Source: a virus
Virus record (IMG/VR): IMGVR_UViG_3300018476_000202
Location: 1-28,438 of that record
Reading direction: 5' to 3' (one strand)
DNA: 28,438 bases
A model generated the notes under the pieces. It was not told the DNA's origin, made no database searches, and saw only the letters and a list, made by a program, of their open reading frames with translations. The position numbers and the translations under genes were made by a program. Positions 11,981-27,666 of the stretch are shown here, one piece after another (position 1 is the stretch's first letter; each line of letters starts with the position of its first letter).

Positions 11981-13324
11981 CTATGGAACTGTTGGATGGA
12001 GGGCTGCCTTCAAACCAGCAAGACGGGCGGCATATGACGTCATATCATTCTGATACGCAAGACTAACCATTTCAGATGCACCATAATCCTCAATATCTCT
12101 ATAATATTCTAGTTCATCTGTTTCAAGATACTCTACATATTTAAGTTCTGATGAGCGAATACCATCCCATGGATCACACAGTTCATCATCAGATTCTCTA
12201 CGACCAGCAATATATTGCGTTCCTCGAAATGCTTGTCCGGGACTATACAGACGAGGTACTAGAGACATTCCTTGCATAGCATATTTCATCTTAGCATGAG
12301 CGAATTCACAGATTGTAGGTGCAATATCCATATTGCTAACAATACCGTTATCAATTCTACCTAGAGTAAAGTTCGGCAATCTAATCTGAATATTGGCTTT
12401 AATGGCTTCTTCATAGGGGAAGCCCTTTGTACCACCACGGCCAGACCGCCATAGACGATGCTCACCAAAGCAGTTTCCATTATCAGTCATAACAATAATA
12501 ACAGTGTTAGTCCAGAATCCATTAGAAACAAGAGCATCATGAATAGCTAGGAATTGCTCATCAACAGCAGCGATACAACGATAAGCATCATACCTGTATG
12601 TATCTGCATTAGTTTGAGTACCAGCAGTCATTAGGCTAGGAAAATGAGTAGACAGCCATTCAGGCTTATCTATAATATTATCCTCATTGAAGGACTCTCT
12701 ACGAGTAGCAACTCTGTTCTCTGTATTATATAAAGTTTGGTGTCGAGTAGCAGGATACGTGGAAGAAAGCTCTTGAGTAGCGTGGGGAGCAAAATTAGAT
12801 ACCTGTAGGAAAAAAGGAATTCCATCAGGTGCCCTGTTGATATAATCTACAGCCTTATTAGTGAAAACATCAGTAGAATAGTCCGCATCTGTACCACCAT
12901 ATGTAACTAGTACACCATTTTCAACCAATTTATAGTTACGATAGTCTGATTGATTATTATTGCTCATATGAAATGAGTAAGATTCTTCAAAACCAGGTGG
13001 ATTTGGAACTGCTGCTGGTGCAAAAGGCCATCCATTTAGAACTTTACCAATATGACAAGTATGATAACCAGCGTTCATGAGTGCTTTAGGGAGAGCAGTT
13101 TGAAAATCAAAGAGTTCTGCGTCTTCGTTCTTAATAATACCGTGATTAATAGGGTGACGACCACTCCAAATAGTACACCTAGAGGGTGTGCAAAGAGGTG
13201 TACACAGTAGTGAATTAGCAAATCGTACTTGTTGATTAGAATAAGTATTCCAGTTAGTCATTCTAGCTGGAAAATCTACTGGAGAGTCATCCAACAGGAT
13301 GAGAATAATGTTAGGTCTAGCCAT
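11981..13324 (-). CDS. Phage sulfatase, formylglycine (Cys) type (447 aa)
   Basis: A full alkaline-phosphatase-superfamily sulfatase. Visible active-site elements are the N-terminal metal-binding Asp pair (PNIILILLDD, D12-D13), the C-x-P-x-R signature (C45-TPS-R49 followed by CTIWSGR), K94 in HIGKVLNG, H181 in APH, D281-N282 in MTDNGNCFGEH, and K300. In this family the signature Cys is oxidised to formylglycine by a formylglycine-generating enzyme, which is not in this window and would have to come from the host. There is no signal peptide. The ATG at 13324 overlaps the upstream anchor-module stop (TAATG). The setting suggests desulfation of a surface glycan at adsorption. A phosphonate or phosphate ester substrate cannot be excluded. 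Confidence 0.9.
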   Translation of the reverse strand: MARPNIILILLDDSPVDFPARMTNWNTYSNQQVRFANSLLCTPLCTPSRCTIWSGRHPINHGIIKNEDAELFDFQTALPKALMNAGYHTCHIGKVLNGWPFAPAAVPNPPGFEESYSFHMSNNNQSDYRNYKLVENGVLVTYGGTDADYSTDVFTNKAVDYINRAPDGIPFFLQVSNFAPHATQELSSTYPATRHQTLYNTENRVATRRESFNEDNIIDKPEWLSTHFPSLMTAGTQTNADTYRYDAYRCIAAVDEQFLAIHDALVSNGFWTNTVIIVMTDNGNCFGEHRLWRSGRGGTKGFPYEEAIKANIQIRLPNFTLGRIDNGIVSNMDIAPTICEFAHAKMKYAMQGMSLVPRLYSPGQAFRGTQYIAGRRESDDELCDPWDGIRSSELKYVEYLETDELEYYRDIEDYGASEMVSLAYQNDMTSYAARLAGLKAALHPTVP

Positions 13325-23314: not shown

Positions 23315-24448
23315 CTACTGTAGTAAATTGGAAGCAGGCTCGGTACTGCGTACTTCAATAGCCTTCTTGATGGTTTCATTCTTTCTAATCTCGGCAGCAA
23401 CCGCAAGTAGGACTTCACTACTCACATACGTGGCAAGGATTTCCATAATAGCAGACAGTACAGTTGTAATCATTTGCTGCGAAATCGGCTCAGCTACGTA
23501 GGTAGTACTAGTAGTAGGACTGATATTAATGCCACCCTTTTCAGGACGATAGATGTTCAGCCACTCGTTGTAATACTTAATAGCATTCAAGTCACCATTT
23601 TGAATCGACCTTGCTATACTTAGTTTTGCGTCGTTCTGTAGGTCTTCTGAGAACACTTGCTCGATACGCATCGTATAGTAGTCGTGATGTGATTTCTTTC
23701 GCAACAAGGCGGTCCACTCTTTGGTGGTAATCCCTGCCTCTTTGAGCTTCGCCGCCAGGTTCCTCTTGTCGTTGATATTGACTACCAGAGTTACAGCCCA
23801 CGCGAACTTTGGATCTATGTAATCTTTTGATTTTACTTCGTAAGGAGGAACACCACGATTGGAGAGAGACTCCGAGATTTCTTCTACGATTACTGTCCAT
23901 CCCTCAATGACCTTAGGACGGCTTGGGTGCTCTTGAAATTTCTTGTCTAGTTCCTGTAGGAAAGGAAGACGCTTCTGAATAAAGTAGAACGTTTCGATAA
24001 AGGTAAGCAAGTCAGCACGAAAAGTGTCTGTGTTCCCGAACCGGGAAAATGGAGTAAATTTAGATTCTGGGAACGCTTTTTGACCTACAGGGGCGGGAGG
24101 TCCGTGCTTCTTTGAATCTTTGCCCTTCCGTTTTTGGAATTTAGGTTCGCTAAATGGACCAGTGGATTTTACGGTTGTGAGGTTTAAACGGTCCGGAAGA
24201 GCAGAATCAGTACTGCCAAAAGGACTATTCCAACTATCACGTACACTACTGGGTGCATCTTCGTCTTCTTCCTGTTGATCGGTGTCTTGAATGCTTATAC
24301 GAGCTTCATGCTTCTTCAACTCGTAGTTCTTCTCCAGTTGCTCTTGTTTACTCTGGAAGGCTTTGACAGTGGAAATGAAGTCCTGAGATTCTGAGATCAT
24401 CTTGGAGATATCTCGCATAACAGGAGGGTACCAAAAATGGGAACCCAT
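23315..24448 (-). CDS. Candidate terminase small subunit (377 aa)
   Basis: The first gene of the leftward operon. The N-terminal ~150 residues are charged and low complexity, with an initial coiled coil. Residues ~150-330 contain a helical region resembling small terminases: LPFLQELDKKFQEHPSRPKV, then KLKEAGITTKEWTALLRKKS and ARSIQNGDLNAIKYYNEWLN. The phrase 'GD-x-x-AIKYY' followed by a Y-x-P is typical of that family's HTH-linked domain. It would recognise the packaging site. The ATG at 24448 has only a weak ribosome site; ATG 24415 is an alternative. It is separated from the large subunit by lysis-type genes. Confidence 0.6.
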   Translation of the reverse strand: MGSHFWYPPVMRDISKMISESQDFISTVKAFQSKQEQLEKNYELKKHEARISIQDTDQQEEDEDAPSSVRDSWNSPFGSTDSALPDRLNLTTVKSTGPFSEPKFQKRKGKDSKKHGPPAPVGQKAFPESKFTPFSRFGNTDTFRADLLTFIETFYFIQKRLPFLQELDKKFQEHPSRPKVIEGWTVIVEEISESLSNRGVPPYEVKSKDYIDPKFAWAVTLVVNINDKRNLAAKLKEAGITTKEWTALLRKKSHHDYYTMRIEQVFSEDLQNDAKLSIARSIQNGDLNAIKYYNEWLNIYRPEKGGINISPTTSTTYVAEPISQQMITTVLSAIMEILATYVSSEVLLAVAAEIRKNETIKKAIEVRSTEPASNLLQ

Positions 24449-24544
24449 GTAAAATTACTCTGTAAGAAATCTATTTAGGGAAAAAAATTGAGCAGACGCC
24501 AATAAAATGAAACATTCCATTATCGCACTATCGGAGATCAATCC

Positions 24545-24564
24545 GTGTTAGGCTGGCCTAACAC
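24545..24564. promoter_or_regulatory. Perfect 20-bp palindrome in array unit 1
   Basis: GTGTTAGGC, then TG, then GCCTAACAC: nine-base arms around two bases. The two-base centre is too tight for an RNA loop, which favours binding by a dimeric protein at the DNA level. This is the best-conserved unit and is closest to the late operon start. Confidence 0.75.
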
Positions 24565-24752
24565 CGCGTGTTAGGATCGGTTATTCAAAAATATGAGGAG
24601 GGGGTAACTCGATTTGTAAGGCAAGCCTAACATAAGATGAGAGGGAAGGGGAACGTGGTATGTTAGGCTAGCCTTACGTCACGCATTAGGTGTAACGAAC
24701 AGTAGATGTTAGGTGTAATGATACCGAGATGTTAGGTCATCCTAATCTTTAT
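24546..24752. repeat. Nine-unit 23-bp phased repeat array (array 1)
   Basis: TTAGG-type boxes begin at 24548, 24571, 24594, 24617, 24640, 24663, 24686, 24709 and 24732, exactly 23 bp apart. Six boxes are TTAGG, and the others are TGAGG, TAAGG and AGAGG. Units 1, 4, 6 and 9 complete an inverted repeat (TTAGG-N4-CCTAA or one mismatch). The array fills the space between the leftward late operon (starts 24448) and the rightward early genes (starts 24843). It therefore looks like a shared operator or iteron region. Confidence 0.9.
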
Positions 24753-24771: not shown

Positions 24772-24801
24772 TTGCCTTTCGTTTCGGATTCTGCGCATAC
24801 T
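24772..24801 (+). promoter_or_regulatory. Possible promoter for rightward early genes
   Basis: TTGCCT at 24772-24777 and CATACT at 24796-24801 are separated by 18 bases and lie just after array 1 and 42 bases before the first rightward ATG. The match to sigma-70-type elements is partial, so this is a weak call. Confidence 0.25.
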
Positions 24802-24842: not shown

Positions 24843-25055
24843 ATGAACAAGGAAATCGAAGTCAAGACCACGATGCCGGTGCCTGATTCGTGGCGCATGA
24901 ATCGTATCCTTCAAGAGAATGACAGCATTCAGGATACCGATCGTGTCCTGCTCGTCAATCTTTGGTGCGAGCACAATCGTTTGCGTGCCGAGCTTCGCAC
25001 GCTCAAGCGTCTCGTCGAGATTGCCGAAGTGAATGGCGATCGACGTTACGATTGA
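24843..25055 (+). CDS. Small early protein (70 aa)
   Basis: The ATG at 24843 is preceded by GGAGACAAGGAA. A longer in-frame reading from 24729 would start inside the repeat array and is rejected. The protein begins MNKEIEVKTTMPVPDSWRMN and is helical and charged, with an amphipathic C-terminal half (EHNRLRAELRTLKRLVEIAE). No domain is recognised. Its G+C-richer codon use differs from the late genes and from the second paralog. As the first gene after array 1 it is probably an early regulator or host-takeover protein, but that is inference. Confidence 0.65.
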   Translation: MNKEIEVKTTMPVPDSWRMNRILQENDSIQDTDRVLLVNLWCEHNRLRAELRTLKRLVEIAEVNGDRRYD

Positions 25056-25134: not shown

Positions 25135-25503
25135 ATGGAAATGGACGAGCAGACTGTTGCAACTGAGGAAGTGGTCAATCGCATTCCTCTCACTAAAGAC
25201 CAGGCTTCGGCTGAGATGCTCGGTCATCCGATCATCGAGTACTTCCTCACTCTCGTTCTGAGTGAAGGATGGAAGAAGCTGGAACTTGCTGACCAGGTTG
25301 ACTTCCGCACTCGACTTTCAGCCTTTGTTGCTACGGCAAACAAGGCTCGTGAGGTTTTCGACAAGGCTGTCTGGAAGGGACACGAGAATGGCTCGGTGCA
25401 TGTCGATGTCAAAAGCGTGCGCCAGCAGTCGGATGGCGACAAGCCCGGACGAAAGCCAGTCGAAAAGACGTTGGCTCAGATCATTGCTGAGTCGATGAGG
25501 TGA
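25135..25503 (+). CDS. Paralog 1, unknown function (122 aa)
   Basis: Starts MEMDEQTVATEEVV after GGAAAGGGAA; an internal ATG at 25141 is an alternative. A helical N-terminal half (ELADQVDFRTRLSAFVATAN) leads to VFDKAVWKGHENG and a basic end DGDKPGRKPVEKT. It aligns with the protein at 25952-26269, with 44 identical of 69 residues over the shared core including the invariant WKGHENG and DGDKPGRKPVEKT blocks. Codon use is markedly G+C-richer than in the second copy. The family is not recognised, and no catalytic or membrane motif is visible. Confidence 0.75.
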   Translation: MEMDEQTVATEEVVNRIPLTKDQASAEMLGHPIIEYFLTLVLSEGWKKLELADQVDFRTRLSAFVATANKAREVFDKAVWKGHENGSVHVDVKSVRQQSDGDKPGRKPVEKTLAQIIAESMR

Positions 25504-25512
25504 GGTTTGTCG

Positions 25513-25544
25513 GGCGGCTGGGATTAGCAATGATTCCAGCCGCC
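25513..25544 (+). other. Strong hairpin just after paralog 1
   Basis: GGCGGCTGGGA (25513-25523) pairs with TTCCAGCCGCC (25534-25544), 11 bp with one G-U pair and a 10-base loop, nine bases after the stop codon. It has the stability of a terminator stem but lacks a T-run, so it could equally protect the mRNA 3' end. Confidence 0.55.
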
Positions 25545-25550
25545 TGGCTC

Positions 25551-25622
25551 GCCGATTGGGCAGCGTATTTCCTCGGAATCTCCTGATTGGTTCGGGGGGT
25601 TCCGAGGAAATCCCAACTCGGC
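25551..25622 (+). ncRNA. Two-tier stem-loop, candidate structured RNA
   Basis: Outer arms GCCGATTGGG (25551-25560) and CCCAACTCGGC (25612-25622, one bulge) enclose a perfect 11-bp inner stem TTTCCTCGGAA (25568-25578) with TTCCGAGGAAA (25600-25610) and a 21-base loop. This is more elaborate than a usual terminator. It may be a structured 3' UTR or a small RNA; transcription is not shown by sequence. Confidence 0.4.
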
Positions 25623-25649
25623 AAGAACTGATGCTCATGCTTCGCATGG

Positions 25650-25669
25650 GTCGCAATAATACCTACTCG
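25650..25669 (+). repeat. 20-bp direct repeat, copy A
   Basis: GTCGCAATAATACCTACTCG lies downstream of paralog 1. A copy with one difference (GTCGCAATTATACCTACTCG) lies downstream of paralog 2 at 26377-26396, so each paralog is followed by the same element. Confidence 0.7.
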
Positions 25670-25675
25670 CGCCGG

Positions 25676-25813
25676 CGTTAAGCTTGCCTAACATATGTTG
25701 TTAAGCGCCCTTTATATTCGGCGTTCGGCAACTCCAATTTAGCGTGTTAAGCCCGCTTTATATTCTATATTCGGTTGAGCCAATATAGAGTGTAAGGCGG
25801 GCTTTCGTGTCAT
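25676..25813. repeat. Six-unit 23-bp phased repeat array (array 2)
   Basis: Boxes start at 25678 (TTAAG), 25701 (TTAAG), 25724 (TTCGG), 25747 (TTAAG), 25770 (TTCGG) and 25793 (TAAGG), each 23 bp apart. TTAAG and TTCGG units alternate over part of the array, giving a 46-bp super-repeat with CTTTATATTC after the TTAAG boxes at 25701 and 25747. Unit 1 completes TTAAG-N4-CCTAA. The array precedes the second paralog and fills most of the gap between the paralogs. Confidence 0.85.
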
Positions 25814-25951: not shown

Positions 25952-26269
25952 ATGGCTGATGAAATTAATGTCAAGGTTGAGGGTAAGGCTGCTAATTTCC
26001 TGAAGATGTTTCCGGATATCTTTAGCGAGGATTGGCAGAATTGGGAATTGGACGATCAAATCAATTTCCGCAATATCCTTGAAGTCTTTGTCAAGGGTGC
26101 AAATCTTTGTCGGGAGACATTTGATAAGCAGGTTTGGAAGGGCCATGAGAATGGCAAGGTTAATGTTAAGGTGACAAGCATTAGGACAAAGGCTGACGGC
26201 GATAAGCCTGGTCGGAAGCCTGTTGAGAAGACAATGGATGATTTGCTCGACGAGCGTTTGTCCAAGTAA
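25952..26269 (+). CDS. Paralog 2, unknown function (105 aa)
   Basis: The ATG at 25952 has a good AGGAGA ribosome site. The core FSEDWQNWELDDQINFRNIL, then FDKQVWKGHENG and DGDKPGRKPVEKT, matches paralog 1 (44 of 69 residues). Codons are A/T-ending where paralog 1 uses G/C-ending ones, so the copies either diverged long ago or came from different sources. It is preceded by array 2 and bracketed by a 14-bp inverted repeat. The unusual amount of control sequence suggests tightly regulated expression. Family not recognised. Confidence 0.75.
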   Translation: MADEINVKVEGKAANFLKMFPDIFSEDWQNWELDDQINFRNILEVFVKGANLCRETFDKQVWKGHENGKVNVKVTSIRTKADGDKPGRKPVEKTMDDLLDERLSK

Positions 26270-26282
26270 TTAATTAATGGTG

Positions 26283-26296
26283 GAGGTTTCGCTCGC
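26283..26296 (-). repeat. 14-bp inverted repeat, right copy
   Basis: GAGGTTTCGCTCGC, partner of 25888-25901, begins 13 bases after the paralog 2 stop. A partial extra copy (TTCGCTCGC) lies at 26360-26368. Confidence 0.75.
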
Positions 26297-26298
26297 AA

Positions 26299-26391
26299 AG
26301 GTATAATTTCGGCGAATAGGTCAGATTAGGGGTAATACCCTGGTCTGGCCTATTTGTCGTTCGCTCGCTCACTCGCGTCGCAATTATACCT
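26299..26391 (+). ncRNA. Multi-tier stem-loop after paralog 2, candidate structured RNA
   Basis: An outer 10-bp stem AGGTATAATT (26299-26308) with AATTATACCT (26382-26391) encloses a 13-bp stem CGAATAGGTCAGA (26313-26325) with TCTGGCCTATTTG (26344-26356, G-U pairs allowed) and a small inner GGGT-AAT-ACCC hairpin. The right outer arm lies inside copy B of the 20-bp direct repeat. It may act as a terminator-like 3' structure or a stable RNA. Confidence 0.45.
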
Positions 26392-26396
26392 ACTCG
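26377..26396 (+). repeat. 20-bp direct repeat, copy B
   Basis: GTCGCAATTATACCTACTCG differs from copy A at 25650-25669 by one base. In this copy the sequence also forms the outer arm of the stem-loop. Confidence 0.7.
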
Positions 26397-26569
26397 TGTG
26401 AAAACTTTGGGTTATATTCTATATGCATATATTTTTTCCAGTAAAAGAGGAATAAGTCGAATATTCTCTTTTCCTACAGGTTCTATGTTACATATTAGCT
26501 GAACATAATCTCACTATCCCCTTATGGTCACTATGGCAGGAGGCATAGCTGGAGGGCTGTGTAAAGCCG

Positions 26570-26964: not shown

Positions 26965-26979
26965 ATGGTAGGCATGGAC

Positions 26980-27612
26980 ATGGACAGAAGCAGAGCAATA
27001 CTGAAACTATTACTAGAAAAGAAAGAGGCAGAGGGCAAAGGCTTCAAACAACCAGGGCACAATGCACCGCATATTGCCGAGGAGATTGGTAGCTCTGAAA
27101 GCTACGTTCGTACTTGTCTATCTTCACTGTACAAGCAAGGACTAGTTCGAGGTTACAGGGGATACTACAACATTACTGATGCTGGTATTGATGCATTGAA
27201 TAAGGGAGAGCCGATCTCACTCAAAGGCAAAAAGAATGTCACCGATGTCATCCCTAAGAATCTATTAGTACAAAGTGACTATTGCAAGGCTCTCATCAAA
27301 GACTACGCGCTCGTCGCGGAAACATATCTCAATCTAACTGATGAAGATGTTATCGAGAAGCTACTACCTATCGTAATGGTTTATTGCATCAAGCAAGGCT
27401 ATGAACTTCCTGCTGGTTTCAACCTTACTTGTAACAGTGATAAGGCTAACGAAACATGGGGAGAAGTAGACGGCTATCTTACATACAACATAGACAGTAT
27501 TATTTGTGCTATGGACTGGGATGCATATGCCGAGTATGAAACAGAAAAGGGAAGACCTAAAGAAACAGTAGCTCAAATGGAAAAAAGGTGGAACGAGAAA
27601 AAGGCTAAGTAA
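26980..27612 (+). CDS. Winged helix-turn-helix DNA-binding protein (210 aa)
   Basis: The ATG at 26980 is preceded by GGTAGG with seven-base spacing; ATGs at 26965 and 26974 and a TTG at 26938 are in-frame alternatives. The first ~75 residues form a winged HTH: NAPHIAEEIGSSESYVRTCL is the HTH, LSSLYKQGLV the linker helix, and RGYYNITDAGIDALNKGE the wing and following helix. This resembles MarR/PadR-like regulators. The C-terminal ~130 residues (LTDEDVIEKLLPIVMVYCIK, WGEVDGYLTYNIDSII) are not recognised and may mediate oligomerisation. It is the only clear DNA-binding regulator here, so it is a candidate binder of the 23-bp arrays (inference). Confidence 0.75.
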   Translation: MDRSRAILKLLLEKKEAEGKGFKQPGHNAPHIAEEIGSSESYVRTCLSSLYKQGLVRGYRGYYNITDAGIDALNKGEPISLKGKKNVTDVIPKNLLVQSDYCKALIKDYALVAETYLNLTDEDVIEKLLPIVMVYCIKQGYELPAGFNLTCNSDKANETWGEVDGYLTYNIDSIICAMDWDAYAEYETEKGRPKETVAQMEKRWNEKKAK

Positions 27613-27620
27613 TTGGGGCG

Positions 27621-27666
27621 TGTTAGGGGTGCTTAACAGAGCGTGTTAGGTGCCCCTATCATGCGC
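27621..27666. repeat. Two-unit 23-bp phased repeat (array 3)
   Basis: TTAGG boxes at 27623 and 27646 are 23 bp apart. Unit 1 completes TTAGG-N4-CTTAA and unit 2 TTAGG-N4-CCTAT, and both are preceded by GCGTG. A weak third unit (TGTAAAT at 27667) stays in phase. It lies in the gap between the winged-helix gene and the last operon. Confidence 0.8.

Follow-up and report, generated by a model that had tools for sequence, protein, structure and literature searches.

What is the array of TTAGG-type boxes that lies between the divergent early and late genes of an environmental phage, and which protein might read it? To address this, we analyzed a virus record of 28,438 bases (IMGVR_UViG_3300018476_000202), hereafter the window, meaning the whole stretch of DNA. 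Its leftward genes include terminase, portal, major capsid and endolysin-like genes, whereas short rightward genes begin at 24843. The closest named terminases are 43% identical (Manatee Spring podovirus MW202795) and 34-35% identical (Arthrobacter and Cellulosimicrobium phages). As MW202795 carries two genes annotated as WhiB, an actinobacterial family, an actinobacterial host is likely, although this is an inference; a search for the terminase in 395 genomes of one actinobacterial class found none. Among the structural genes, a 447-aa protein at 11981-13324 reads like a sulfatase/alkaline-phosphatase-type enzyme (CTPSRCTIWSGRHP), although its only PHROG match is 19870, of unknown function. 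The features needed below are as follows.

24546-24752, no strand assigned: array A, nine 23-bp units, with full dyads at 24546-24563, 24615-24632, 24661-24678 and 24730-24747, half-boxes in units 24569, 24684 and 24707, and degraded boxes in units 24592 and 24638.
25676-25808, no strand assigned: cluster B, TTAAG/TAAGG-type boxes in units 25676, 25699, 25745 and 25791 (steps 23, 46, 46), upstream of the early gene 25952-26269.
27621-27661, no strand assigned: cluster C, two dyads exactly 23 bp apart (27621-27638 and 27644-27661), between the winged-helix gene and the next early gene.
24519-24541, minus strand: conserved late-direction element with an extended -10-like TGCGATAAT (24519-24527) and TTGATC (24536-24541), 4 bp from unit 0 of the array; its promoter role is inferred.
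24772-24801, plus strand: tentative candidate early promoter TTGCCT-18-CATACT right of the array (TTGACT-17-CATACT in the relative L010), below the threshold of the consensus scan.
23315-24448, minus strand: first gene of the leftward block, which continues to the endolysin-like, terminase, portal and capsid genes.
24843-25055, plus strand: first early gene, 70 aa, unknown function.
25952-26269, plus strand: early gene downstream of cluster B, 105 aa, paralogous to 25135-25503.
26974-27612, plus strand: winged-helix protein.

First, we examined whether the array is real. The initial annotation had described nine TTAGG-type boxes at exact 23-bp steps, and this observation was confirmed. The boxes lie at 24548, 24571, 24594, 24617, 24640, 24663, 24686, 24709 and 24732; six are exact TTAGG, whereas 24594 is TGAGG, 24617 is TAAGG and 24640 is AGAGG. 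When the best count on any lattice (periods 8-60, nine steps) was calculated, the window gave 6, against at most 3 in 300 dinucleotide shuffles. No unrelated 5-mer in the window exceeded 4, and only shifted versions of the same box came close. Lag-23 autocorrelation over the region was 0.50, among the highest in the window. However, two corrections were needed. The sequence at 24545-24564, described as a perfect 20-bp palindrome, matches its reverse complement at only 18 of 20 positions owing to a central TG. In addition, clusters B and C, which share the 23-bp spacing, had been missed. With the pattern TTAGGNTNNCCTAA and up to 2 mismatches, the window holds 20 matches against 7.1 expected, and no shuffle reached 20; fourteen of them lie in the three clusters.

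Next, we analyzed the conservation of the boxes. In L010, a relative whose terminase is 92% identical, all units of the three clusters keep the 23-bp register, including the four units of cluster B (reverse-complement positions 13175, 13198, 13244 and 13290) and the pair of cluster C (14999 and 15022). Over 15 aligned units, dyad positions are identical in about 83% of cases, whereas dyad centre and spacer are identical in about 50%. At unit 8 both half-sites change together, from TTAGG..CCTAA to TAAGG..CCTTA. In contrast to the other units, units 6 and 7 (24684-24729) are 45 of 46 identical with L010, spacer included, suggesting that another site may overlap them. MW202795 has dyads at 35439, 35507 and 35530 in its own divergent region, the last two 23 bp apart. 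However, the closer relatives L004, L006 and L008 (65-74% terminase identity) lack the boxes, so the device is dispensable in the lineage. The late-direction element TTGATC...TGCGATAAT is nevertheless conserved in the window, L010, L008 and L006, with or without the array. Arthrobacter phage Jasmine and Cellulosimicrobium phage DS1 have no comparable clusters.

The neighbouring early region was also compared. The early proteins at 25135-25503 and 25952-26269 are paralogous, have no Pfam or PHROGs match, each lie in a transcription block behind a box cluster, and have homologues in L004, L006 and L008. Two intergenic stretches, 25505-25675 and 26290-26400, contain hairpin-like repeats and end in a shared sequence like GTCGCAAT..TACCTACTCG; in L010 the first is almost unchanged although the flanking genes diverge. 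These are possibly structured RNAs or processing sites. A search of Rfam gave only matches below the gathering scores, and a sigma-70 scan found no promoters above threshold.

Pattern scans were then employed to ask whether the array is private to this phage, and this view was rejected because it was found in many viral contigs. Two fixed-spacing scans returned 21 viral stretches each. Many hits of the first scan (for example L012, L013, L018 and L024) are unrelated tandem repeats and were discarded, but in viral loci such as L025 (a 128-kb record), L030, L047, L048, L049, L054 and L056 the dyad recurs on the lattice. After removal of the pairs that defined the query, 62 of 86 dyad distances in other viral loci fall within 1 bp of a multiple of 23, against 11.2 expected. 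A scan with a free gap of 0-30 found pairs of the dyad in 20 viral stretches, while two control dyads found none; there, 23 bp is the commonest step, but 20, 21, 30 and 34 also occur. BLAST of a synthetic array against phages and plasmids found nothing useful, as spacers differ. In three phage records, Fur-type palindromes (TGAGAATGRTTCTCA, or separated arms in L092) lie within about 110 bp of the iron-box dyads (L054:4512, L025:10287 and L092:35395-35432), as if a second metal regulator were also read.

We then asked what the box is. The unit is TGTWAGG-N4-CCTWACA, and its core equals the published IdeR/DtxR half-site TTAGGNNNNCCTAA (PMC8464063), exactly at 24548-24561 and 24732-24745 and with one mismatch at 24617, 24663 and 25678. 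The full 19-bp two-dimer box TTAGGTTAGSCTAACCTAA is not matched exactly; the best matches have 3 mismatches to TWAGGTTAGSCTAACCTWA. Nevertheless, with up to 3 mismatches allowed, this published box hits the window only at 24617 and 24658, both in array A, against 0.01 expected. The free-gap scan of cellular genomes gave 16 stretches. Six Actinomycetota loci have the pair at a ferric-type solute-binding protein (SBP), of which L085 matches ferric-iron-binding protein 7w3w at E=2e-67. Three Gastranaerophilales loci and one rumen bacterium have it at a DtxR-family gene (both Pfam domains in L076, L084 and L086; L089 by its similarity to L084), and a Heimdallarchaeota locus has it at feoA-feoB; at these loci it precedes the DtxR-family genes and feoAB. 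The remaining loci of that scan (L078, L081, L082, L090 and L091) have other or unclear neighbours.

Because that scan asked for pairs, it was repeated with a single perfect dyad in one actinobacterial class. The dyad was found in 15 of 198 genomes, against 0 of 198 for the backward control. Of 14 new loci, five adjoin SBP_bac_6-type binding proteins, four adjoin FTR1 permeases (two by Pfam, two by reading the translation), one adjoins a Peripla_BP_2 protein (siderophore-type), three are unassigned, and one (L119) is a phage contig. Thus, 10 of 13 cellular sites adjoin such genes, indicating, by position only, that the same box marks iron genes in cells. L119 is binned in a genome of the class (G189) and shares its ORFs with viral contig L075, a possible host link. 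All six box-bearing cellular genomes tested encode a DtxR regulator. Furthermore, a matrix built from 22 cellular sites alone had its seven best window hits all in clusters A, B and C, at 14.9-25.2 bits, whereas the best hit of a shuffle averaged 10.2 and never exceeded 17.0. However, the cellular sites are single dyads or pairs 20-25 bp apart close to the start codon, not nine-unit arrays.

To find the likely binder, we searched 17 array-bearing virus records with PF01325, which gave no match over its cut-off, suggesting that the binder is probably the host's regulator. As the records are fragments, a DtxR gene could lie outside them, and one weak hit was present in a 106-kb record (E 0.0055, below cut-off).

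These results therefore led us to propose, with moderate confidence, that the array and its two sister clusters are operators for the host's iron-dependent regulator of the DtxR/IdeR family, coupling the early and late promoters of the phage to host iron. In this view, each dyad is one iron-box half-site, enough for one regulator dimer, and weaker boxes between the strong dyads may let dimers fill the 23-bp lattice side by side. A single IdeR dimer binds a half-site with KD 78 nM, and the authors of that work propose TTAGGNNNNCCTAA as the consensus and discuss SH3-domain swapping between dimers on adjacent sites, a possible cross-linking of neighbours, as well as oligomerisation of the relative MtsR on DNA (PMC8464063). 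A lattice of half-sites fits such assembly. In iron-replete cells, the Fe2+-loaded regulator would coat the region between the divergent promoters and hold them, most likely by repression, and when iron falls, or when replicated phage DNA outnumbers the regulator, the promoters would be released. Repression is favoured because it is the usual action of DtxR-type regulators at iron-uptake promoters. Unit 0 lies about 20 bp upstream of the conserved late -10-like element, and the last dyad ends 24 bp (window) or 11 bp (L010) upstream of the early -35-like hexamer, the promoter roles being inferred. What the sequence analysis establishes is the array, its conservation, its identity with the box at cellular iron genes, and the lack of a DtxR domain above cut-off in the 17 virus records. 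Binding by the host regulator, its metal dependence, repression rather than activation, cooperativity, and an actinobacterial host are all inferred.

The interpretation in the initial annotation was thus only partly supported. A cooperative regulator array with selected spacing at the divergent early/late region is supported, but the statement that it is no recognized operator type is not, since the box is an IdeR/DtxR half-site. Phasing on the helix in the sense of one DNA face does not hold either; 23 bp is about 2.2 turns of B-DNA, so successive dimers would wind around the DNA rather than share one face. The suggested binder, a winged-helix protein encoded at 26980, is disfavoured, and we consider a phage-encoded regulator of the lattice doubtful. 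Its gene lies next to cluster C in both the window and L010, and its only Pfam hits are weak HTH matches, none passing its cut-off. However, it is the most diverged protein compared between the window and L010 (42% identity, against 66-96% for the others) although the boxes are unchanged. Moreover, a homologue is present in L008, which has no array, and is not detectable in box-bearing L092. A search with this protein in viral contigs gave no hit. The same box at cellular iron genes cannot depend on it. Least likely are iterons for a replication initiator, also raised initially, or a partition centromere for a ParB-like protein. Regular tandem spacing is typical of iterons, but three separate clusters lie upstream of different genes in the window, eight occur in two parts of the 128-kb L025/L057 record, identical boxes lie upstream of cellular iron genes, and no initiator family was found among the early proteins tested with Pfam.

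Alternatively, the host iron regulator may bind the same boxes but activate the phage promoters when iron is plentiful, as IdeR/DtxR do at ferritin-type promoters. This remains possible but is less likely than repression. In L010 the boxes end 11-16 bp upstream of TTGAC(A/T) in all three clusters, and cluster C of the window ends 13 bp upstream, rather than overlapping it; phage clusters end about 85-143 bp upstream of start codons, against 19-56 bp at most Acidimicrobiia-type iron genes. Nevertheless, the promoter calls are weak, and the position of unit 0 also suits repression. A further reading, more speculative and unlikely on present evidence although not excluded, is that the arrays act as a sponge and timer: replication of phage DNA would titrate the host IdeR, which would at once open host iron uptake and release the late promoter, so that the early-to-late switch would be set by gene dosage and iron. 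There are seven strong and several weak sites per genome, and FTR1-family genes are among the cellular genes with this box. During infection by an unrelated Rhodococcus phage, WC1, an EfeU-type iron transporter is raised and bacterioferritin is lowered (PMC10986025). However, all clusters sit in intergenic regions upstream of genes, which a pure decoy would not need.

If the proposed reading is correct, phages of environmental, probably actinobacterial, hosts wire their central early/late switch to the host's iron sensor rather than to a repressor of their own, which predicts iron-dependent timing of infection for phages known only from metagenomes. The arrays would also supply natural tandem half-sites for a question left open by structural work, namely what IdeR does at half-sites and whether neighbouring dimers are cross-linked on DNA.

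Finally, we compared the array with known systems. The novelty is the architecture and position, not the box. The IdeR/DtxR iron box and its half-site (TTAGGTTAGSCTAACCTAA and TTAGGNNNNCCTAA; PMC8464063) share the core dyad TTAGG-N4-CCTAA, which in cells occurs at ferric transporter, FTR1, feoAB and DtxR-family genes, whereas here half-sites with flanking TGT/ACA form long 23-bp arrays in phage genomes. Among the papers found, which exclude most subscription literature, none described phased iron-box arrays in phages or at a phage's main divergent promoter. Control of phage genes by host DtxR is known for targets in the Corynebacterium glutamicum prophages CGP3/CGP4 (PMC12327846) and occurs at the corynephage tox gene; iron-triggered induction of CGP3 acts through the SOS response (PMC6173762). 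Those targets are individual cargo or prophage genes, whereas the present arrays sit between the early and late gene blocks of a podovirus-like phage whose 43-kb relative MW202795 has no annotated integrase. Phi29 p6 and other phased phage nucleoprotein sites similarly show regular spacing of about 23-24 bp near early and late promoters, but p6 sites lack a fixed sequence box, in contrast to the strict palindromic box shared here with cellular iron genes. The dyad ends also fit TGT-N12-ACA, the site of the P2 Ogr/P4 Delta activators, although the conserved inner TTAGG/CCTAA and the cellular iron-gene context are not features of Ogr sites.
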